Of a stretch of 64,000 bases of DNA, positions 46,536-58,617 are shown one piece after another; position 1 is the first letter of the stretch, and each line of letters begins with the position of its first letter. The notes under the pieces were generated by a model. The model did no database searches, was not told where the DNA came from, and worked only from the letters and a program-made list of their open reading frames with translations. Position numbers and translations under genes: made by a program. Source of the stretch: Azoarcus sp. (GTDB lineage: Bacteria > Pseudomonadota > Gammaproteobacteria > Burkholderiales > Rhodocyclaceae); the NCBI GenBank assembly GCA_030604735.1, contig JAUVVG010000001.1, positions 124,001 to 188,000 on the forward strand, in the 5' to 3' direction.

Positions 46536-46592
46536 GACCTAGACCGATGTCGAACATTCTTGCCGGGTGGCGGCGAAAGGAAAGGATTCATC

Positions 46593-47426
46593 ATGAGTTT
46601 TGGGAACATCATCGGGCAGTTGCTCCAACAGGGCATGGCTTCGCAGACCCGTTCGCGACTGGAGCGCACCACAGGCTCGAAGGCGCAGGGCGGCGGGCTG
46701 GATCAAATGCTGGGCGGTTTGCTGGGCGGCCTCGGCAGTGGCTCGCCCAGTGGTGGCGGTAGCGGTGGACTGGGCGGCGCAGGGGGGGCTTCGCAGCTGG
46801 ACGGGCTGCTGGGTCTGGCCAAGCAGTACATGGGGAACAAGCAGGCGGGCAACCTGACCGGCGCACAGGTCGGCGGGATTGGCGCGCTTGCCGGCGCGCT
46901 GCTTGGCGGCGGGAAGGGGGCGGCCAAGGGTGCGTTGGGCGGCAGCGCCATGGCGATTCTGGGTACGCTCGCGCTCAATGCGCTGCAGGCGCGGATGGCG
47001 AATCAGGCTTCTGGCGCGGGTACTGCGCCAGCCCAGCTGGACGTCAGCCAGGCGCAACTGCAGACAATGGTCGATCCGGCCACGGAGCGCCTGGTGCTGC
47101 GGGCGATGATCTCGGCGGCCAAGGCCGATGGCGAAGTGGATGAAGAGGAGATGTCGCGCATCGTCGGCAAGATCGGGGTCGATGGTGTGACGCCCGAAGA
47201 ACGGCAACTGGTCCTGGACGAATTGCGCCGCCCGCTCGATATCGCCAGTCTGGTTTCGGAGGTCCCCAATCCCCTCGTGGCAGCCGAAGTCTACGCGGCC
47301 TCGCTGCTGGCGATCGATGTGAATACCGCCGACGAGATCGCCTATCTGAAGCGACTGGCACAAGCCCTGCGTCTCGATGCCCAGACGGTGGCCCGTTTGC
47401 ATGAGATGACCGGCCTGCCCAAGTAG
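46593..47426 (+). CDS. DUF533 / TerB-fold protein (YebE-like)
   Basis: A 277-residue protein: N-terminal amphipathic stretch (MSFGNIIGQLLQQGMASQ), a long Gly/Ser-rich low-complexity region with glycine-zipper character (residues 40-140), and a C-terminal TerB-like helical domain (VLRAMISAAKADGEVDEEEMSRIVGKIG; AAEVYAASLLAIDVNT). Members of DUF533, such as E. coli YebE, are membrane-associated stress proteins of unknown mechanism. ATG 46593 has AAAGGA about 8 bases upstream. It stands alone, downstream of the LysM remnant. Confidence 0.85.
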   Translation: MSFGNIIGQLLQQGMASQTRSRLERTTGSKAQGGGLDQMLGGLLGGLGSGSPSGGGSGGLGGAGGASQLDGLLGLAKQYMGNKQAGNLTGAQVGGIGALAGALLGGGKGAAKGALGGSAMAILGTLALNALQARMANQASGAGTAPAQLDVSQAQLQTMVDPATERLVLRAMISAAKADGEVDEEEMSRIVGKIGVDGVTPEERQLVLDELRRPLDIASLVSEVPNPLVAAEVYAASLLAIDVNTADEIAYLKRLAQALRLDAQTVARLHEMTGLPK

Positions 47427-49257: not shown

Positions 49258-50337
49258 ATGAAGCCGACCATACGTGACAAACTCGAACAGCTTTCCTCGC
49301 GCCTGGAGGAACTGGATCGCGCGTTCGCTTCCGAAGAGACCGCGCGTGACATGGACCGCTATCGCGCACTCGGCAGGGAGCGGGCCGAGATCGAGCCGGC
49401 GGTGTTGCTGTACAAGCGATTCCGGCAGGCCGAGCAGGCGCGCGACGAGGCGAGTGAGATGCTTTCCGATCCCGAGATGCGCGAGCTCGCCGAGATCGAG
49501 CAGGCCGAAGCCGACGAGACGCTGGAGGCGCTCGAGAGCGAACTCAGACTCGCGCTGCTGCCGCGCGATCCGGATGACGACCGCAACCTATTCCTCGAGG
49601 TCCGCGCTGGCACCGGTGGCGACGAGGCCGCGTTGTTCGCTGGCGATCTGCTGCGAATGTACACCCGTTATGCCGAGCGCCAACGCTGGCGGGTCGAGAT
49701 CGTCTCTGCGAGCGAATCCGATCTGGGCGGCTACCGCGAGGTGATCGCCCGCATCGTCGGGGCTGGCGCCTATGCGAAGCTCAAGTTCGAGTCTGGCGGG
49801 CACCGGGTTCAGCGCATACCCGTGACCGAAACCCAGGGACGGATTCACACCTCGGCCTGCACCGTGGCGGTGATGCCGGAGGCCGACGAGTTGGTCGAAG
49901 TCGCGATCAATCCTGCCGACCTTCGCATCGACACCTTCCGGGCCAGCGGCGCGGGCGGGCAGCATATCAACAAGACCGACTCGGCGGTTCGTATCACCCA
50001 CATCCCGACCGGCATCGTCGTCGAGTGCCAGGATGATCGCTCCCAGCACCGCAACCGCGCCCAGGCCATGTCGGTGCTGGCGGCACGGATCCACGACATT
50101 CAGTTGCGCGAGCAGCAGGCGAAGGAAGCGGCGACCCGCAAAAGCCTGGTCGGTAGCGGCGACCGCTCCGAGCGGATACGCACCTATAATTTTCCGCAGG
50201 GGCGGGTCACCGACCATCGCATCAACCTGACCTTGTACAAGCTGGATGCGGTGATGGAAGGCGACCTGGACGAGCTGATCGGTGCGCTGACGCTGGAGCA
50301 CCAGGCCGGCCTGCTGGCCGATCTGGCGGGGGATTGA
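49258..50337 (+). CDS. prfA: peptide chain release factor 1
   Basis: Recognises UAA and UAG stop codons and triggers peptide release. 359 residues. The catalytic GGQ is in [20 protein letters not shown] (about residue 234) and codon recognition by the PxT-type region before it; [20 protein letters not shown] follows. The GGQ glutamine is methylated by PrmC, encoded 1 base downstream. ATG 49258 follows hemA by 50 bases. Confidence 0.97.
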
Positions 50338-50338
50338 G

Positions 50339-51178
50339 ATGACCGTATCGGTATCGCCGGACATCGTCGGGGCGCTGAACTGGGCCCGAGGCCTGATCGG
50401 TGCGGTTGATGCGCGGGTCTTGCTGCGTCACGTGCTGCGCTGTCCGGCCGCGAGGCTGGTGTCACGGCCCGAGACCGTGCTCAATCAGACGGAGTGGTCG
50501 CACTTTCAGTCGCTGGTCGAACGACGCGTGGCGGGCGAGCCGGTCGCCTATCTGACCGGCGAGCGGGAGTTCTACGGGCGCAGCTTCGTGGTCACGCCGG
50601 CGGTGCTGATTCCGCGCCCGGATACCGAGCTGTTAGTGGAACTGGCGCTCGCGCATTTCCAGGACCGTCGTGCGGTGCGCGTGCTCGACCTCGGCACCGG
50701 GAGTGGCGCGCTCGCGGTGACCTTGGCTTGCGAACTGAACGAGCCGGACATCACCGCGGTCGATCGCTCGCGTGAAGCGCTGCTGGTCGCGATGGCGAAT
50801 GCCGCACGCTTGCAGGCGAGCGTGTCATTCGTGCTGAGCGACTGGTTCTCGTCACTGGCCGGCGACCGTTTCGATCTGATCGTGGCCAATCCGCCCTATG
50901 TCGCGTCGGCCGATCCGCATCTGGATGAGGGCGATGTCCGTTTCGAGCCTCAGACCGCACTGGCCTCCGGCCCGGAAGGGCTGGATGATCTCGCGCTGAT
51001 CGCATCTCAGGCGCCGCACCATCTCGAACCGGGGGGCTGGCTGTTCATGGAGCACGGCTACAACCAGGCGGCCCGGGTAAGGAGCTTGCTGACCGATGCC
51101 GGGTTTTCCGCGATCGCATCGCATCGCGACCTCGCCGATATCGAGCGGGTCACCGGCGGACAATGGCTGGGACGTTGA
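50339..51178 (+). CDS. prmC: release factor glutamine methyltransferase
   Basis: SAM-dependent enzyme that methylates the GGQ glutamine of RF1 and RF2. 279 residues: N-terminal helical domain, SAM motif VLDLGTGSGALAVTLA (residues 116-131), and the substrate-Gln binding NPPY in FDLIVANPPYVASADPHL. The ATG is one base after the prfA stop, so the enzyme and its substrate are translationally coupled. Confidence 0.96.
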   Translation: MTVSVSPDIVGALNWARGLIGAVDARVLLRHVLRCPAARLVSRPETVLNQTEWSHFQSLVERRVAGEPVAYLTGEREFYGRSFVVTPAVLIPRPDTELLVELALAHFQDRRAVRVLDLGTGSGALAVTLACELNEPDITAVDRSREALLVAMANAARLQASVSFVLSDWFSSLAGDRFDLIVANPPYVASADPHLDEGDVRFEPQTALASGPEGLDDLALIASQAPHHLEPGGWLFMEHGYNQAARVRSLLTDAGFSAIASHRDLADIERVTGGQWLGR

Positions 51179-51239
51179 CGGCAAGCCCGGCGAGACCTAG
51201 AATTATCCGACTAATTAACTCAACTTTTAGAGCGTAAAA

Positions 51240-51572
51240 ATGGACGTCCAGGCATTCATCCGCGAGCAGGTCACCACCCACCCGGTCGTGCTGTTCATGA
51301 AAGGCACCCCGCAGTTTCCCCAATGCGGTTTTTCGGCGACAGTCGTACAACTCCTGAAGCAGGCCGGGGTCAAGCAGGTCGCCGCGATGAACGTCCTCGA
51401 AAGCGACGATTTGCGCCAGGGTATCAAGGAATACGCCAACTGGCCGACTATCCCGCAGTTGTACATCAACGGTGAGTTCGTCGGCGGCTGTGACATCGTC
51501 AAGGAGATGTTCGAAAGCGGCGAGTTGCAGCAGATGCTGGCTGCTGCCGGTGTGAGTGGCCCGGCCGCCTGA
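51240..51572 (+). CDS. grxD: monothiol glutaredoxin (Grx4 type)
   Basis: A 110-residue CGFS-type glutaredoxin that binds a glutathione-ligated 2Fe-2S cluster as a dimer and works in Fe-S cluster delivery. [19 protein letters not shown] places the active-site Cys at residue 29; [19 protein letters not shown] carries the glutathione-binding TIP/GG motifs. Linkage after hemA-prfA-prmC is common in betaproteobacteria. Confidence 0.96.
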
Positions 51573-51631
51573 TTGCATCCGCGTCAGTCGTGCTCTTTAT
51601 CGGGCAGGGGGCCGAGCATGGACAACGCAGC

Positions 51632-51859
51632 TCAGCCTCGAAGGTTCGAGCCGTTTTCGTTTCGGTTGCCCGTAATAAGGTGTAGTTTGAGAAAACAGCC
51701 TGAAACGATCAGAGCGATGCCGCCGATAAAAACCGTCGAAACGGGCACGCCGATCACGTAATAGTATCCGGCCAGTCTTAGCATCACCGTCGCCAGACAG
51801 ACGAACATGCCAGCAAGACCCATTGCAGTCGCGCAAGCGTTAATGATTCCGGATTTCAT
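51632..51859 (-). CDS. small two-TM membrane protein, unknown
   Basis: A 75-residue protein with two hydrophobic segments (IINACATAMGLAGMFVCLATVMLRLAG; VIGVPVSTVFIGGIALIVSGCFL) and a short charged tail. A GGAGGG site lies 4-6 bases before the ATG, which supports expression. It is not recognised. It is convergent with grxD and lies beside a low-GC accessory stretch. Confidence 0.55.
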   Translation of the reverse strand: MKSGIINACATAMGLAGMFVCLATVMLRLAGYYYVIGVPVSTVFIGGIALIVSGCFLKLHLITGNRNENGSNLRG

Positions 51860-52218
51860 CTGCCCTCCACCAGGATCGCACTCCTCGCCGAACTCAGGGC
51901 AAAAGAGGTTTGTCCGAAGCGATATTATGCGCTCACCGTGATGGATGTCACGAGGCTATATTGCTGCCATCGTATAATCAAAAGCGAACAATAGTCTGAC
52001 GTCAGCGCCCGACTGTCGGTTTTTTTTACAGTTGGCGACAGTCTGGTGTGGGGTCAGTACTTAAGTCTTGTCTAAGTGCTTGAGGTTTAGATTGTTTGGC
52101 CATTGTGTTGCCAGGTGGTTCGGTTCTTGCTTATATAGCACTGACCAGATCGATCGGAATCCTCTTCCGCCCCGGCGTCACGTTTGATAACAGAGGATTG
52201 CGGATAAGGAAGCTTCCA
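51860..52218. other. low-GC intergenic region upstream of the exported-protein operon
   Basis: No gene seen. Contains TATAAT (51973-51978), a CTGACGTCAG palindrome (51996-52005) and a hairpin GACTGTCG (52011-52018) / CGACAGTC (52036-52043) whose loop holds eight T. Could carry the operon promoter or a short transcript; base composition is clearly lower in GC than the flanks. Confidence 0.4.
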
Positions 52219-52740
52219 ATGTCCAACCTAGTATCGGAACGAACCAAACAGCGACGACGGATCTTACGGGCGGCCGTAGGCACTCCTTTAGTATTCTCGT
52301 TACCTAGCGGTGCTGCGATCGCCGATACAAGTTTGAGTTGCAAAGTTAAGAGCCATAGTTTGGCGACGTCGGAGCCAGCATTAGGAGCGACGTCGTCGCC
52401 AGATAAGTGGGTGCGTTTTGAAGTATCTGCTTATCGGATAAATCAACCGGGAGGGCACGTTCGAGGATTTAAACTGAATGATGGTCTCCAGGACTCTTGG
52501 TATCGCGTGAACAACGATGGTACTGTGTCCAACATCACGCCGAATGGAAATGCGGTGGAACAGTCGGAAAAGTTTTATCTTTTAGTCGATTACGATTCGT
52601 ATATTGCGAACAAGACCAACCCGATCATGTATGTATATAAGGGAGGGGACGGAATTAGTAGTCCCATTGCAGGCACATCTTGTTGGAACTCCATTAGTAT
52701 TTTAGGCGACGAAATACTTTCGACCGTGATTAGAGGTTAA
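52219..52740 (+). CDS. exported protein of unknown function, Tat-like signal
   Basis: 173 residues. N-terminus TKQRRRILRAAVGTPLVFSL followed by PSGAAIA resembles a Tat signal with cleavage after AIA. The mature part has two Cys (SLSCKVKS near the start; GTSCWNSISIL near the end) that could form a disulphide, and a probable beta-rich composition. ATG 52219 has AAGGAAG upstream. Base composition is markedly poorer in GC than neighbours, suggesting recent acquisition. The PqqD-like gene starts 16 bases later, so it is probably in the same operon and may be the operon's substrate. No family recognised. Confidence 0.65.
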   Translation: MSNLVSERTKQRRRILRAAVGTPLVFSLPSGAAIADTSLSCKVKSHSLATSEPALGATSSPDKWVRFEVSAYRINQPGGHVRGFKLNDGLQDSWYRVNNDGTVSNITPNGNAVEQSEKFYLLVDYDSYIANKTNPIMYVYKGGDGISSPIAGTSCWNSISILGDEILSTVIRG

Positions 52741-52756
52741 TGAGCATACGCTGACA

Positions 52757-53014
52757 ATGAGTCTTGCTTTGCTTGATGTGCGGCGTCTCGGTGACGCCGC
52801 AGTCGTTTTCGACGGCCGAACTTGGCAGACCCACCTTTTACCGCCTGCCGCTGCTGTCGTCGCCGATTTGATAGAAGAGCTCAACGAGCAGGGTCCATTT
52901 ACCCAAGAGCAACTCGAATCGGCGGTTCGTGTTGATCTGGAACTGGATCCAGGCACTCCCGAGATGAGAGACTTGTTCCGTATGTTCAAGGACATCGGGC
53001 TGCTCGGCGAATGA
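52757..53014 (+). CDS. PqqD-like protein (HPr-rel-A system type)
   Basis: 85 residues with the PqqD/RRE-like pattern: short beta strands (DAAVVFDGRTWQTHLLPPAAA), then helices ADLIEELNEQGPFTQEQLESAV and a C-terminal MRDLFRMFKDIGLLGE. PqqD-type domains bind precursor peptides in RiPP pathways. Its stop overlaps the start of the HprK-related kinase (ATGA at 53011-53014). I recall a described but uncharacterised association of such PqqD proteins with HprK-related kinases; the function is unknown. Confidence 0.75.
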   Translation: MSLALLDVRRLGDAAVVFDGRTWQTHLLPPAAAVVADLIEELNEQGPFTQEQLESAVRVDLELDPGTPEMRDLFRMFKDIGLLGE

Positions 53015-53952
53015 TTCCCTCCTCCGGTGGATTGATAGCATCCCGTTCGGATGCCGAACTGAACTCGGCGCTTGGAGGCGACGGTTGCTTCGTTGACTAC
53101 GGCGCCTGCGTGGTGCGGGTCCGGTCTGTGGCGCATCCCTTCACCGATCTGCTGCGTCGGGTTTATGGCGCGTTTCCACTCCAAGCGTCGGCCGAGTTCG
53201 CCGATTTTCATGTTGAACTGGTGCCTGGCAAGGGTGTGCGGCGATGGTTGCGGCCGACTGCTCGTTTCCGTATCGACGGGGTCGAACCGTTCGAACCGTT
53301 TCCGGCGACCAGCACGCTGCCCTTGTTCGAATGGGGAGTGAATTGGTGTTTCGGCCAACGTTTCAACCAGCATGTGCTGCTCCATGCCGGCACACTGGCG
53401 ATCGGCGAGCGCGCGGTCGTGATGCCGGCGGTGCCCGGATCCGGGAAGAGCACCTTGTCGGCAGCGATGATGTTGCGCGGGTTTCGCCTGCTGTCCGATG
53501 AATTCGGGGTGCTGAAGCCGGAAACCGGTGAGTTGCTGGCGATGTTGAAGCCGGTGGCGCTGAAGAATCAGTCGATTGGAGTGATCCGCGCCTTTTCCGG
53601 TGACGCCGTGCTGGGTCCGGTCTTTCCAGAGACGCGCAAGGGCGATGTCGCCCATCTCGCCCCGGACTTGGCGAGCGTGTCGGCGATACACCAGCCTGCA
53701 CGTCCCGCACTCGTCATTTTTCCGCGTTACGTCGAAGGTAGCGATCTGGAAGTGACGCCTCAGCCGCCCGAACAGGCGTTCGCCCGGCTTGCATTCAACA
53801 GTTTCAACTATGCGCTGCTCGGGCCGGTTTCGTTTCACGCGGTTGCGGATGTAGCGGAATCCTGTCCCGGCTATGCTCTGCGTTACAGTCGCCTCGACGA
53901 AGCCATAGACTGTATCGTTAGTCTGCTGGAAGACACGCGGGGGCCGCGGTGA
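53011..53952 (+). CDS. HprK-related kinase A
   Basis: 313 residues, related to the C-terminal domain of HPr kinase/phosphorylase. P-loop VPGSGKST at residues 141-148 preceded by LHAGTLAIGERAVVMPA, followed by LLSDEFGVLKPETGE (Walker-B-like Asp-Glu). The HprK-specific HPr-recognition region is not evident, so HPr is unlikely to be the substrate. Overlaps the PqqD-like gene upstream and the nucleotidyltransferase gene downstream. May phosphorylate a peptide or protein bound by the PqqD-like partner; this is inference. Confidence 0.8.
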   Translation: MIPSSGGLIASRSDAELNSALGGDGCFVDYGACVVRVRSVAHPFTDLLRRVYGAFPLQASAEFADFHVELVPGKGVRRWLRPTARFRIDGVEPFEPFPATSTLPLFEWGVNWCFGQRFNQHVLLHAGTLAIGERAVVMPAVPGSGKSTLSAAMMLRGFRLLSDEFGVLKPETGELLAMLKPVALKNQSIGVIRAFSGDAVLGPVFPETRKGDVAHLAPDLASVSAIHQPARPALVIFPRYVEGSDLEVTPQPPEQAFARLAFNSFNYALLGPVSFHAVADVAESCPGYALRYSRLDEAIDCIVSLLEDTRGPR

Positions 53953-55055
53953 TGCGCTTGCGAAGCAAGGGACGCGAGGTGGAAGCGCATCTGTTGCCCC
54001 TGCTCAGGGACATCGCCCATGCCGACACAATGACGCTGGCCGATTGGGATGCGACCTTGCGTCTGGCGCGCCTGGCACGGGTGCTGGGTGTGCTTGCACA
54101 CCGGATTCGTAGCGATCAGTCACGCTGGGCGCGAGTTCCCGAGCCTGTCAGGGGCCACTTGCGAGCATCGATCAATTATGCAGCCCATCGCGCCCAGATG
54201 GTCAGGATGGAGCTGGCTGCGCTGGACCGGGCCTTGCCGGCGGACATGCAGGTCATCGTACTCAAGGGGGCCGCTTATCAGCTTCAGGGGGTGCCGATTG
54301 CCCAAGGGCGCAGTCCGAACGACGTCGATCTGCTGGTCGCGCGCGCGGACCTCGACCGGGCCGAGTCAGTGTTGAACCAGGCCGGCTGGGTCTCGGAGGT
54401 CAGGGATGACTACGACCAGCGCTACTACCGCGAGTGGAGTCACGAGCTACCGCCGATGCGCTACCCAGGGCATGCGCTCGAAGTCGACTTGCACCATACG
54501 ATAGCACCGGTGACGAGCCACGCCCGCGCCGATGACAGATTGCTGTTCGACGGGCTGGTGCTGATCCCCGGCTCTCGCTACTGGGCGCTCGACCCCTGTG
54601 ATCAGATCATTCATGCGGCGGTGCACCTGTTCCAAGACTCGGAACTTGATGCACGGCTGCGTGATCTGGTCGATATCGATGGGTTGGTCCGTTTTCATCT
54701 TCGGGATGAGGGGACCTGGAACCGGCTGATCGAGCGGGCAGGGCGTCATGGAGCGACCCGGTTGCTTTGGTACGGACTGCATTACTGCAAGGCTTGGTTG
54801 GCAACGCCAGTGCCGGAGCGGGCATTGCGGCAGGCGCCGCCGCGTCGGGCGCAATGGGCGATGGACTGGGTTTTCAGTCGCGCGACCTTGCCACGTTTAC
54901 CCGATCGTCCGCCCGGCGCGATGGTCCGTCTTGCCGGGGCGTTGGGTCGGCTTCGCTATCACCTGCTGCGCATGCCGCCCGCGCTGCTGTTACGTCACCT
55001 CGCACACAAAACCTGGACGAGGCGTTTTGCCAGGCGCTCCGCTTCACCGCGATAA
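53952..55055 (+). CDS. nucleotidyltransferase-family protein
   Basis: 367 residues with the minimal nucleotidyltransferase signature: VIVLKGAAYQL (Lys105-Gly106) and SPNDVDLLVA (Asp124 and Asp126, metal ligands), then ALEVDLHHTIAPV as third acidic strand, fitting the uncharacterised NTP_transf_5 group. Starts in the stop of the kinase gene (TGATG at 53950-53954). Its last 61 bases overlap the convergent fructosamine kinase gene. Could attach a nucleotide or other group to the operon's target; unknown. Confidence 0.78.
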   Translation: MRLRSKGREVEAHLLPLLRDIAHADTMTLADWDATLRLARLARVLGVLAHRIRSDQSRWARVPEPVRGHLRASINYAAHRAQMVRMELAALDRALPADMQVIVLKGAAYQLQGVPIAQGRSPNDVDLLVARADLDRAESVLNQAGWVSEVRDDYDQRYYREWSHELPPMRYPGHALEVDLHHTIAPVTSHARADDRLLFDGLVLIPGSRYWALDPCDQIIHAAVHLFQDSELDARLRDLVDIDGLVRFHLRDEGTWNRLIERAGRHGATRLLWYGLHYCKAWLATPVPERALRQAPPRRAQWAMDWVFSRATLPRLPDRPPGAMVRLAGALGRLRYHLLRMPPALLLRHLAHKTWTRRFARRSASPR

Positions 55056-55918
55056 CCACGCCCAAACAGGTTGAGGTGGTTGAGGATGTGATAAAGCCGG
55101 TAGAGCGGTTTGCGGTCTTCGCTGTCCTCGGCGGGGGGGTGCTGGCGGCGATATTCGGCGTAGAAGCTGGCCGGGAAGCCGCCGAACAACTCGGTCATCG
55201 CGAGGTCCGATTCGGGGTCGCCATGATGGACTGCCGGGTCGAATACGACTGGCGTGCCGGTGGGGTCGATTGCGGCGTTACCGTGCCACAGGTCGCCATG
55301 CAGCAGGGCGGCTGGTGGCCGATAGTCCAGGAATAGTGCCGGCACCCGGTCGAACAGCCTTAGGCCGAGTTGTTGCAGCTCGCCATCGAAACCCTTGAGT
55401 CGGGCGAGTGCGAACTGAGGCTTGAGCCGCTGTTCGACAAAAAATCGTGCCCAATTTGGTGATGGCGTATTGGTTTGCGGCGTCGCACCGATGAAGTTGT
55501 CACGCGGCCAGCCGAACGACTCGCCGATGCTGCGATGCATCTGTGCCAGCGCTTTGGCGAAGCGGGTGCCGTCGTCGGCGGTCGCGAGCGGGCGAAGTTC
55601 GAGGTGCTCCAGCACCAGCCAGGCCTGGTGTTCGTCTTCACCCAGGGTGATGAGTTTCGGAACCCGCAGCGTGCCAGTTCGATCGATCGCATCCAGGCCG
55701 TCGGCTTCGGCGGCAAACATCCCGGCGCTGGCGGGTGTTCCCAGTTTGACGAAATAGCGGGTTCTACCGTCGCTCACGATCCGAGCGTCGTGAATGCAAC
55801 CGCCCGAGACCGCAGCCGACTCGCGCAAGGTAAAGGCCTGGCCGGTCGCGGTGCGAATCGCGCTTTCGATGCTTGCCAGGGCCGTGCGCTCAGGGTCGGC
55901 TCTCGTGCCGGAGCTCAT
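54995..55918 (-). CDS. fructosamine kinase family protein
   Basis: 307 residues, aminoglycoside-phosphotransferase fold. Features: SGGCIHDARIVSDGRTRYFVKLG N-terminal lobe with the ATP-binding Lys, catalytic loop LLHGDLWHGNAAIDP and the metal-binding DPAVHHGDPESDLAM. Family members phosphorylate ketosamines so that glycated proteins can be repaired. ATG 55918 overlaps the stop of the upstream Ser/Thr kinase gene (ATGA at 55915-55918). The 3' end overlaps the convergent nucleotidyltransferase gene by 61 bases. Confidence 0.92.
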   Translation of the reverse strand: MSSGTRADPERTALASIESAIRTATGQAFTLRESAAVSGGCIHDARIVSDGRTRYFVKLGTPASAGMFAAEADGLDAIDRTGTLRVPKLITLGEDEHQAWLVLEHLELRPLATADDGTRFAKALAQMHRSIGESFGWPRDNFIGATPQTNTPSPNWARFFVEQRLKPQFALARLKGFDGELQQLGLRLFDRVPALFLDYRPPAALLHGDLWHGNAAIDPTGTPVVFDPAVHHGDPESDLAMTELFGGFPASFYAEYRRQHPPAEDSEDRKPLYRLYHILNHLNLFGRGYRGEAERLAKRLVQVLCAR

Positions 55919-57204
55919 ACGCTGGCGATCCGCGTGTTCGCCAGCGACAGACGCGTGGACAACACTTCCAGAAAGGCCTTGTAGAAGTGCATGCGGCAGG
56001 TGTCCGAAGCGCGTTGCAGCGCGCCCGCGCTGATCCTCACCACGCTTGCCGGGGTGGCGGATTCGACCGAGGCCGAGCGTACCCCGCCGCCGGCCGAGAA
56101 CAAGGCCATCTCGCCGAAGCAGTCGCCGACGCCGAGCATGTTGAGCAGCTTGCCACGCTTCTTGACCTTGGCTTCACCGTCGGCGAGAAAGCAGAAATGG
56201 TCGCCGGTATCGCCCTCGCGCATCAGGAGTGCGCCGGTTTCGACCCGCTCCCATTTGGAAAAGCCGACGATTTCCCAAAGCTCGACATCGCTGAACTCGC
56301 GGAAGAAGTTCAGCTCGCGCAGGCGCTGGAAACGCTCGGTCTCCGGGATCGCGAGCGCCTCTATGGTCAGCGCCCGGTTCCGAAAAGCCTGGGCGAGGTC
56401 GTGCGAAAAATCGCTCCAGTCCTGATAGCGTTGATCGAGCTCCTTCTCCATCGCGCGCTGAACGATCAGACTCAACGCTTCCGGCACCTCCGGCCGCAGT
56501 TCGGTGACAGGCGGCGGGGACTCATTGGCGATCCGGTAGAGCAGGCTGTAATGGGTTTCGCCTTCGAACGGGAGCTTGCCGGTCAGTAGCTGATACATCA
56601 CCACGCCCAGCGAGTAGATGTCGGTGCGCTGGTCTACCGGCATCTCGCGGATCTGCTGCGGCGACATGTAGGCCGGAGAGCCGACGCCGAGCACCTGGGT
56701 GGCATCGCTGGCCGAGTGGAAGGCGGCGCCGAAATCGGACAGCTTGATGTCCTGGCCATCCGGATCGACCAGCAGGATGTTGGCCGGTTTGATGTCGCGA
56801 TGGGTGATGCCGTGGTGAAAGGCGTAGTCCAGCGCGCGGGTGCATTTGAAAATGATCTCGACGATGCGCGGGAAGGGCAGCAAGCGGTCCGGGCGGGTGA
56901 AGGCTTCCAGCGTGCCCCCCGGAACGTATTCCATCACGACATAGGCGTCGTCATCTTCGACCGAGGCGTCGTAGATCTGGGCGATGTGGGGGTGGTTCAG
57001 TTTGCCTGCCAGCGAGGCCTCGTTCATCAGCAGGTGTCGATACAGTCGTCCGCGCTCCGGGTCGTTCAGCATGTGCGGGTGAATCTGCTTGAGCGCGACC
57101 TCTCGCTGCGCAAAAGAGTCGTAGGCGAGATAGACGCGACTGGTGGCGCCCTCGCCGATCAGCCTTCTGATCTCGTATTTGCCGATCTTTTGCGCGGTCG
57201 ACAT
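55915..57204 (-). CDS. Ser/Thr protein kinase with C-terminal cyclic-nucleotide-binding domain
   Basis: 429 residues. Hanks-type kinase domain about residues 10-275: GEGATSRVYLA loop, VALKQ Lys39, catalytic HRDIKPANIL (135-144), DFG at 157, and APE-equivalent GSPAYMSPQQI. Residues about 300-425 form a cNMP-binding/Crp-like domain (REGDTGDHFCFLADGEAKVK; GVGDCFGEMALFSAGG). No TM segment, so it is cytoplasmic. The fusion suggests allosteric control by a cyclic nucleotide or related ligand. Translationally coupled to the fructosamine kinase gene. Targets unknown. Confidence 0.9.
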   Translation of the reverse strand: MSTAQKIGKYEIRRLIGEGATSRVYLAYDSFAQREVALKQIHPHMLNDPERGRLYRHLLMNEASLAGKLNHPHIAQIYDASVEDDDAYVVMEYVPGGTLEAFTRPDRLLPFPRIVEIIFKCTRALDYAFHHGITHRDIKPANILLVDPDGQDIKLSDFGAAFHSASDATQVLGVGSPAYMSPQQIREMPVDQRTDIYSLGVVMYQLLTGKLPFEGETHYSLLYRIANESPPPVTELRPEVPEALSLIVQRAMEKELDQRYQDWSDFSHDLAQAFRNRALTIEALAIPETERFQRLRELNFFREFSDVELWEIVGFSKWERVETGALLMREGDTGDHFCFLADGEAKVKKRGKLLNMLGVGDCFGEMALFSAGGGVRSASVESATPASVVRISAGALQRASDTCRMHFYKAFLEVLSTRLSLANTRIASV

Positions 57205-57219
57205 GGCGCGTCTGCGGGG

Positions 57220-58617
57220 TCAGGAAAGCGTTTTGCGGGCTTGGGCGATCGCCTGCCTGACCTGCTCCGGCGCCGTGCCCCCGATATGCTTACGTGAAGC
57301 GAGCGAGCCTTCGACGGTGAGGACCTGGAACACATCCTCTCCGATCAGCGACGAATAGACTTGCAGCTCGACGAGGCTGAAATCCGGCAGGTCGCGCCCA
57401 CTGGACTCCGCCGCGCGTACTGCCAGCGCGACCACCTCGTGCGCGTCGCGGAACGGCAGTCCCTTCTTGACCAGGTAGTCGGCCAGGTCGGTCGCGGTTG
57501 CGTAGCCCTGGGTCAGCGCAGCGCGCATCGCGTCTGCCTTGATCCGGATGCCGGTGATCATGTCGGCATAAATGCGCAAGGTGTCGATGACCGTATCGGC
57601 GGTGTCGAACAAGGGTTCCTTGTCTTCCTGGTTGTCCTTGTTGTAAGCGAGTGGCTGGCCCTTCATCAGGGTCAGCAGCGCGATCAGGCTGCCATTGACC
57701 CGGCCGGTCTTGCCCCGGACCAGTTCGGGCACGTCCGGGTTCTTCTTCTGCGGCATGATGCTGGAGCCGGTACAGAAGCGGTCGGCCAGGTCGATGAACC
57801 CGACCCGCGGGCTCATCCACATGATGAGTTCTTCGGACAGCCGCGACAAATGCATCATCAGCAGCGAGGATGCGGCGCAGAACTCGATCGCAAAGTCGCG
57901 ATCGCTGACCGCGTCCAGCGAGTTGGCACAGACTTCGTCGAAACCGAGTTCGCGGGCGACGAACTCGCGGTCTATCGGGAAACTGGTACCGGCCAGCGCG
58001 GCGCTGCCCAACGGCAGTCGATTGACTCGGCGGCGGACGTCGATGAAGCGCTCGGCATCGCGGCGGGTCATCTCGTAGTAGGCCATCAGATGGTGGCCGA
58101 AAGTCACCGGTTGGGCGACCTGCAGATGGGTGAAACCGGGGAGCGGCGTGTCGGCATGCTGCTCGGCGATGTCGAGCAGATTGGCCTGAAAGCTGCGGAT
58201 CAGAGCGAGAATCTGGTCGATCGCGTCCCGCAGCCACAGGCGGATGTCGGTGGCGACCTGGTCATTGCGGCTGCGGCCGGTGTGCATGCGCTTGCCGGCA
58301 TCCCCGACCAGCGCGGTCAGCCTTTTCTCGATGTTGAGATGGACGTCCTCGTCGTCCAGGCTCCAGATGAATTCGCCGCGCTCGATCTCCTGCATGATCA
58401 AGGCCATGCCGCGCTCGATATCGGCCAGGTCGCTCTTGTCGATGATGCCCTGCCTGGCCAGCATCTTGGCATGGGCGAGCGAGCCACGAATATCCTGCAT
58501 CGCCATGCGTTGATCGAAGAAAACCGAGGCAGTATAGCGCTTGACCAGATCGGAGACCGGTTCACTGAAACGGCCTGACCAGGCCTTGTCCGGGGAGGAG
58601 GTGCTAGTGTCTGTCAT
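57220..58617 (-). CDS. argH: argininosuccinate lyase
   Basis: Last enzyme of arginine biosynthesis; splits argininosuccinate to arginine and fumarate. 465 residues, with the superfamily signature [12 protein letters not shown], plus [15 protein letters not shown] and [18 protein letters not shown] 58617 gives [17 protein letters not shown], the usual start. Followed by the Ser/Thr kinase gene on the same strand after 15 bases, and divergent from the AlgR-like gene. Confidence 0.97.

Follow-up and report, generated by a model that had tools for sequence, protein, structure and literature searches.

A four-gene locus in Azoarcus

The stretch of DNA analysed here, referred to as the window, is 64,000 nucleotides long and comes from Azoarcus sp. 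(contig JAUVVG010000001.1, positions 124,001 to 188,000). At 52219-55055 of its forward strand lie four co-directional genes, encoding an exported-type protein that we call the precursor, a PqqD-like protein, an HprK-type kinase and a nucleotidyltransferase. A 16-base gap separates the stop codon of the precursor gene from the start of the PqqD-like gene, and each of the next two junctions is a 4-base overlap. This arrangement had been described in a first-pass annotation, and both its junctions and its family calls hold: the PqqD-like protein scores 40.4 bits against PqqD_rel_X (TIGR04353, cut-off 35), the kinase 371.2 bits against HprK_rel_A (TIGR04352, cut-off 200) and the transferase 172.8 bits against NTP_transf_5 (PF14907, E 1.3e-50, cut-off 31.2).

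The active sites of both enzymes are conserved. Kinase residues H125, G143, G145, K146, T148, D163 and E164 are kept in all 60 kinases aligned from the survey described below, with S147 at 0.97, and transferase residues D125, D127 and D180 are likewise kept in 60 of 60. A sequence search of the PDB returned HprK (3tqf) for the kinase at E 0.031, and only an unrelated chain for the transferase at E 0.12. The PqqD-like protein was modelled as three strands followed by a winged helix-turn-helix, the fold of recognition elements of ribosomally synthesised and post-translationally modified peptides (RiPPs), and the solved structures nearest to the model are leader-bound lasso-peptide B1 proteins. 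It is thus predicted to be a RiPP recognition element.

The precursor itself looked at first like an orphan. At E ≤ 1 neither NCBIfam nor Pfam contains a match to it, plasmid records contain none at E ≤ 1e-5, and a search of 5.8 billion proteins returned only itself and one relative at 65% identity. Its predicted structure is poor (mean predicted local distance difference test score 61.6, with a confident part at about residues 71-120) and has no match in the PDB at E ≤ 0.001, a result that supports neither a new nor a known fold. The orphan status that the database search alone would suggest was overturned by the neighbourhood survey, which places the precursor, as a rapidly diverging member, in a substrate class.

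Table 1. Features of the locus, in window coordinates; class A is defined in the text.
Feature	Position	Strand	Basis or remark
Putative ribosome-binding site AAGGA	52206-52210	+	Sequence, ahead of ATG at 52219
Precursor, exported-type protein, proposed substrate, class A	52219-52740	+	ATG start, 173 aa
Twin-arginine-type leader core, residues 12-35 (RRRILRAAVGTPLVFSLPSGAAIA)	52252-52323	+	R12, R13 invariant in class A
Ser38, third residue past predicted cleavage site, proposed phospho-acceptor	52330-52332	+	19/20 in class A
C-terminal SCWNS motif, residues 154-158, alternative acceptor	52678-52692	+	Motif conservation
PqqD_rel_X, predicted RiPP recognition element / leader-binding adaptor	52757-53014	+	TIGR04353 score
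HprK_rel_A kinase	53011-53952	+	TIGR04352 score
Kinase H125	53383-53385	+
Kinase P-loop region	53437-53454	+
Kinase D163-E164	53497-53502	+
NTP_transf_5 nucleotidyltransferase	53949-55055	+	GTG start; PF14907 score
Transferase D125 and D127	54321-54329	+
Transferase D180	54486-54488	+

Kinase loci and their precursors

To the 30 kinase loci scoring over the cut-off in 101 related whole genomes (the window's included) we added 31 loci from named genomes, ten of whose kinases were scored singly against TIGR04352, all ten passing. After removal of one duplicate (L082, the same locus as L039), this set 1 comprised 60 distinct loci, taken with wide flanks. Loci L091-L093, with kinase matches below the cut-off, were dropped; no precursor was seen at L091 and L092, and L093 gave no tblastn kinase match. 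The first-pass annotation had proposed a survey of this kind to find the gene always next to the PqqD-like, kinase and transferase trio, and had named the absence of the exported-protein gene from homologous loci, together with no interaction with the PqqD-like protein, as what would refute its reading. The constant neighbour is the exported-protein gene, present at 60 of 60 loci, so that the first half of that condition goes against refutation. At 59 it is the gene immediately upstream of the PqqD-like gene or, in Rheinheimera, of the kinase gene. All of these precursor genes that are complete encode a twin-arginine-type leader; two are contig-cut and show the leader end or the core only. At the other locus, L090 (G065), it lies downstream of the transferase gene with a PqqD-like match beside it. 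The transferase gene is also present at all 60 loci, and the PqqD-like gene, by a looser count of size-matched open reading frames (ORFs) or tblastn matches, at the loci outside Rheinheimera (G065 included). The Rheinheimera loci L056-L061 have precursor, kinase and transferase genes with no detectable PqqD-like gene.

The leaders are alike across the set. In an alignment listing 38 of 50 distinct leaders, all 38 have an arginine pair, then a hydrophobic stretch, and a small-residue site, and at their commonest places proline occurs in 29 and threonine in 24. Two classes of precursor were recognised. In class A, to which the window precursor belongs, R12, R13, Cys41, Cys155, Trp156 and Ser158 are each found in 20 of 20 sequences and Ser38 in 19. 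Class B, whose membership was assigned by shared motifs (L053, L081, L085, L087 and L089 fit neither class cleanly), has a mean column identity of only 22% over 26 sequences; its sole invariant columns are M1, the arginine pair and two serines after the leader, while two cysteines, one tryptophan and one alanine are kept at 90% or more. For the window precursor, the A-x-A rule alone is the basis for predicting cleavage after A35. Across 104 rows, some of which repeat one gene, serine is the commonest residue at mature position 3 (42 rows), counted from cleavage sites placed by a simple scoring rule and visibly wrong in some, such as L051 and L064. All 21 class A rows carry the motif [ST]C[WFYL]xS within 40 residues of the end, none of the 32 class B rows does, and it is also present in three of the six other set-1 rows and in 43 of 51 rows from the second sample described below. 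Class A precursors diverge more than their kinases: in the 18 set-1 loci aligned they are 27-52% identical to the window precursor, while the kinases of L031-L050 are 59-70% identical. One unusual precursor (L081:10682-11113) joins a normal leader to a low-complexity core rich in serine, glycine and asparagine.

To ask how closely the precursors keep to the trio, we built a class A profile (20 sequences, including the window precursor and its database relative; L037 and L047 omitted) and a class B profile (26 sequences; the contig-cut L066 and five Rheinheimera rows close to L057 omitted). At E ≤ 0.001 in the 101 genomes they match exactly the 29 kinase-bearing genomes and none of the other 72; the matches within set 1 arise by construction, the absence elsewhere does not, and only the top candidates from a permissive first pass are scored in this search. 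The matches are single and at the trio, with exceptions in three genomes. In G105 the second match is another piece of the same precursor gene, and a leader piece in G106 is probably the missing end of the L037 gene, which a contig break cuts. In G050 (C65:870-1202) a 1597-residue ORF shares only the class B core, and longer ORFs at G455:C23:21695-21964 and G398:C2:94579-94860 also match the core without a leader, which suggests that the class B core is a wider domain. A separate model of the leader (37 positions, contig-cut L037 and L066 excluded) ranks 28 trio loci, of 30 possible, at the top of all matches in the 101 genomes (E ≤ 1.3e-5). The best matches away from a trio, at 2.0e-4 and 2.6e-4, are in genomes without an over-cut-off kinase, and the rest begin at about 0.005. 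The leader is therefore distinct, at this sensitivity, from other signal-type sequences.

A second, wider sample of 398 genomes from the phylum contained 61 with a kinase over the cut-off, 58 of them not in set 1. The precursor gene adjoins the kinase gene in 50 of the 58, recognised in 24 by the leader model (of 29 loci), in 18 by the same model, in two by the class B profile, in two by reading and in four by a clade-specific model. Four more have a candidate elsewhere in the genome. In G187, G199 and G242 full leaders lie on other contigs (L178, L180 and L176, respectively) of fragmented assemblies, and in G383 the candidate is a weak class B profile match away from the kinase. A leader-guided system would be expected to give candidates of this kind, recognisable by their leader and encoded away from the enzymes. 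No precursor was found in the remaining four genomes: G140 and G304, in both of which the kinase is near a contig end, and G453 and G329. The class B profile matches 43 genomes of this sample, five of which have no over-cut-off kinase; there the matches are core-only or weak.

TatC, a component of twin-arginine translocation (Tat), is present in all 29 kinase-bearing genomes, the window's included. Family scans of the precursors (Pfam for the window precursor and the 26 class B sequences; NCBIfam for these and the 20 of the class A profile) gave only weak Tat-type matches and a few at chance level. TIGR02811 weakly matches six of the 20 class A sequences and TIGR01409 two of the 26 in class B, while the window precursor matches neither.

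In the window the cassette lies within 49258-58617, between a side with hemA, prfA, prmC and a Grx4-type glutaredoxin gene and a side with a fructosamine-kinase family (FN3K) gene, a PknB-like kinase gene scoring below the cut-off of its model, argH and ppc on the other strand, and a response regulator gene. The FN3K gene (54995-55918, reverse strand) shares 61 bases with the 3' end of the transferase gene. No promoter-like sequence was found on the forward strand of the gap upstream of the precursor gene. The G+C content of the precursor gene is 47.3%, against 61.6% for the kinase gene, and it is the lower of the two in 50 of 59 loci. The same site, with prfA, prmC and Grx4 on one side and FN3K, the PknB-like kinase gene and argH on the other, is used in L031-L034, L038, L039, L067, L070, L071, L073, L076, L078, L083 and L087, and cassettes at it carry either precursor class in either orientation; relative to the window they are inverted in L067, L070, L071, L076, L078, L083 and L087. 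At L062 the cassette stands between prmC and grxD. It is as if cassettes had been exchanged or inverted at this shared site. One assembly has a second trio, L075 (G000:C22:1-13629), on a 13.6-kb contig that also bears further homologues of argH (88%), FN3K (63%) and grxD (72%); this contig may be a contaminating relative, not a second copy.

Some trios of the second sample were read by eye as lying within XrtA/PEP-CTERM polysaccharide clusters, and among 53 neighbour proteins scanned (of 103 listed) TIGR03108 was found in five and TIGR03088 in four. The trios of L126, L147, L148, L150, L152 and L155 are in or beside such apparent exopolysaccharide clusters.

Proposed modification and export, and its rivals

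The earlier suggestion of a machine that modifies the exported protein gains support from the constant partner gene, the modelled recognition-element fold and the conserved serines past the leader. It had also noted that no radical-SAM or other RiPP enzyme is present, and radical-SAM, cyclase, peptidase and transporter genes are indeed absent from the named neighbours at 47.9-62.3 kb (the ORF at 46560-47423 is unnamed, and short ORFs lay outside the scan). Starting from the observed gene order, family membership, active-site residues, precursor partnership and conservation of leader and serines, we think it reasonably probable that the four genes are a leader-guided protein-modification and export cassette. 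In such a cassette the PqqD-like protein would serve as adaptor, docking on the precursor's twin-arginine-type leader. A serine immediately past the leader would be phosphorylated by the HprK-type kinase, the enzyme of nucleotidyltransferase fold would attach another group to that phosphate, and the modified protein would be exported by the Tat machinery.

These steps differ in likelihood. By analogy with the systems discussed below, the kinase probably acts on the precursor, the PqqD-like protein is likely to bind the leader, and Tat is the probable route of export. The arginine pair and serines that stay invariant amid class B cores of 22% identity count in favour of a serine acceptor. We give even chances to its being the N-terminal serine, most likely Ser38, with the serine of the C-terminal SCWNS motif as the alternative. 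That the transferase acts on the phosphate is a slightly less than even proposition, again drawn from related enzymes, and a hexose, as with PsmN, is our first guess for what it might add. The first-pass annotation had called the chemistry and target unknown and had offered phosphorylation or nucleotidylation before secretion as one possibility. The kind of system is not altogether unknown, as NCBIfam has a name for the one to which the enzymes belong and a publication of 2026 describes a relative of it from Bacillota. Phosphorylation stays in the scheme; the transferase need not nucleotidylate, since its lasso-peptide counterpart PsmN is reported to put hexoses on phosphoserine (PMC9266682).

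More tentatively, there may be a class, Pseudomonadota-wide, in which the Tat signal is itself the recognition-element leader, and whole folded proteins would be phosphorylated and sugar-decorated via phosphoserine in the cytoplasm, exported and possibly joined to an extracellular polysaccharide that neighbouring genes make. If the cassette acts as proposed, modification guided by recognition elements would reach beyond small natural products to exported proteins of Pseudomonadota and be linked with Tat export, and phosphoserine-linked glycoproteins might become accessible through it. The leader signature finds candidate substrates even where they are encoded elsewhere, and the precursor offers two candidate acceptor serines.

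The leader-guided cassette has its weak points. The Tat assignment rests on the motif and on TatC, with only weak matches to Tat models. In Rheinheimera a PqqD-like ORF was unseen in two listed loci (L056 and L060) and no match was found in six genomes, a negative limited by the profile's missing nine of the 29 other kinase-bearing genomes. At several loci of the second sample no transferase gene was seen close to the kinase gene.

Other explanations have to be set beside it. The trios inside XrtA/PEP-CTERM clusters would suit a kinase and transferase acting on another molecule, such as a sugar or exopolysaccharide component, with the exported protein a co-transcribed structural partner and the PqqD-like protein its Tat signal chaperone. 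We regard this as unlikely, because the precursor is constant even where no polysaccharide neighbours are named, as in the window, and because invariant serines in otherwise unlike cores would need another reason. Tat signal chaperones of redox enzymes are known, and the leader here joins a Tat-type signal to a presumed recognition site, as a transient quality control would also have it: the PqqD-like protein would mask the Tat signal, phosphorylation would report folding and the phosphate would be removed before export. With no phosphatase among the window's named neighbours, and a transferase that would be superfluous, we consider such a cycle improbable.

Phosphorylation followed by elimination is the chemistry of class III and IV lanthipeptide enzymes, and in class A a serine and a cysteine stand close together at both ends (S38/C41; C155, S158). 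The kinase might then activate serine for elimination, with a conserved cysteine attacking the dehydro-residue to give a thioether-bridged, lanthipeptide-like exported protein. However, no lyase gene is among the named neighbours and the pair of cysteines may just join in a disulfide once the protein has been exported, so that we put the chance of this chemistry quite low. A toxin-antitoxin-like unit built on the nucleotidyltransferase, to which a weak AbiEii match of that protein (E 0.056) might point, is hardly credible beside its NTP_transf_5 match at 1.3e-50 and its partners, a kinase and proteins of recognition-element-like and exported type.

Relation to known systems

The leader-guided cassette that we favour can be compared with three known systems. 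Lasso-peptide clusters with a kinase and transferase (paeninodin, pseudomycoidin) share with it a recognition element, a kinase acting on a precursor serine and a partner of nucleotidyltransferase fold. For pseudomycoidin, a review has PsmK phosphorylating the serine, reports that PsmN installs hexoses on the phosphoserine, with nucleotidylation followed by a host enzyme kept as a possibility, and describes the kinase with a His-Lys-Asp-Asp motif (PMC9266682). The window kinase has Asp-Glu instead (D163 and E164), lasso cyclase and leader peptidase B2 are not among the named neighbours, and each precursor here is an entire protein bearing an export-type leader.

In NCBIfam, the HPr-rel-A system is defined by TIGR04352 and TIGR04353, and the window kinase and PqqD-like protein score over both cut-offs. 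The present description adds to it a substrate class, its leader and candidate substrates encoded away from the enzymes. We found no publication naming the HPr-rel-A models or TIGR04352/TIGR04353, and none joining twin-arginine leaders with HprK-type RiPP kinases; in a term search the word kinase was absent from the main text of the RRE-Finder paper and of a 2025 recognition-element paper. A named enzyme set for which no published substrate was found thus gains a concrete candidate substrate class.

The nearest published parallel is with the linear polyphosphorylated peptides (LPP) of Bacillota, whose clusters encode LppB as recognition element, LppK as HprK-like kinase and LppN as NTP transferase (PMC13381572, Nat Commun 2026). 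According to that report, LppK puts several phosphates on core Ser3, deletion of lppN caused no change in a heterologous host, LPP are restricted to Bacillota, and LPP and paeninodin clusters are often in capsule loci (PMC13381572). Both systems combine a discrete recognition element, an HprK-like kinase and an NTP transferase in one cluster, and no cyclase. Both have precursors, up to 200 residues long, whose N-terminus is constant and whose remainder varies, an acceptor serine (S3) just after the leader, here a predicted one, and a polysaccharide-locus setting, capsule for LPP and XrtA/PEP-CTERM for some trios here. In contrast, the YxxP leader motif of LPP is absent here: among the 38 leaders examined, none of the 30 that bear a proline has Y or W at -3, and the leader here is of twin-arginine type without the aromatic. 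The archaeal-type signal peptidase I and MsbA-like transporter are not among the window's named neighbours, the only locus scanned for them, and the named hosts (Thauera, Accumulibacter, Rheinheimera and others) are Pseudomonadota. With leader motif, signal peptidase and transporter, and phylum all different, the cassette described here is a variant that would work like LPP but fails its defining features.

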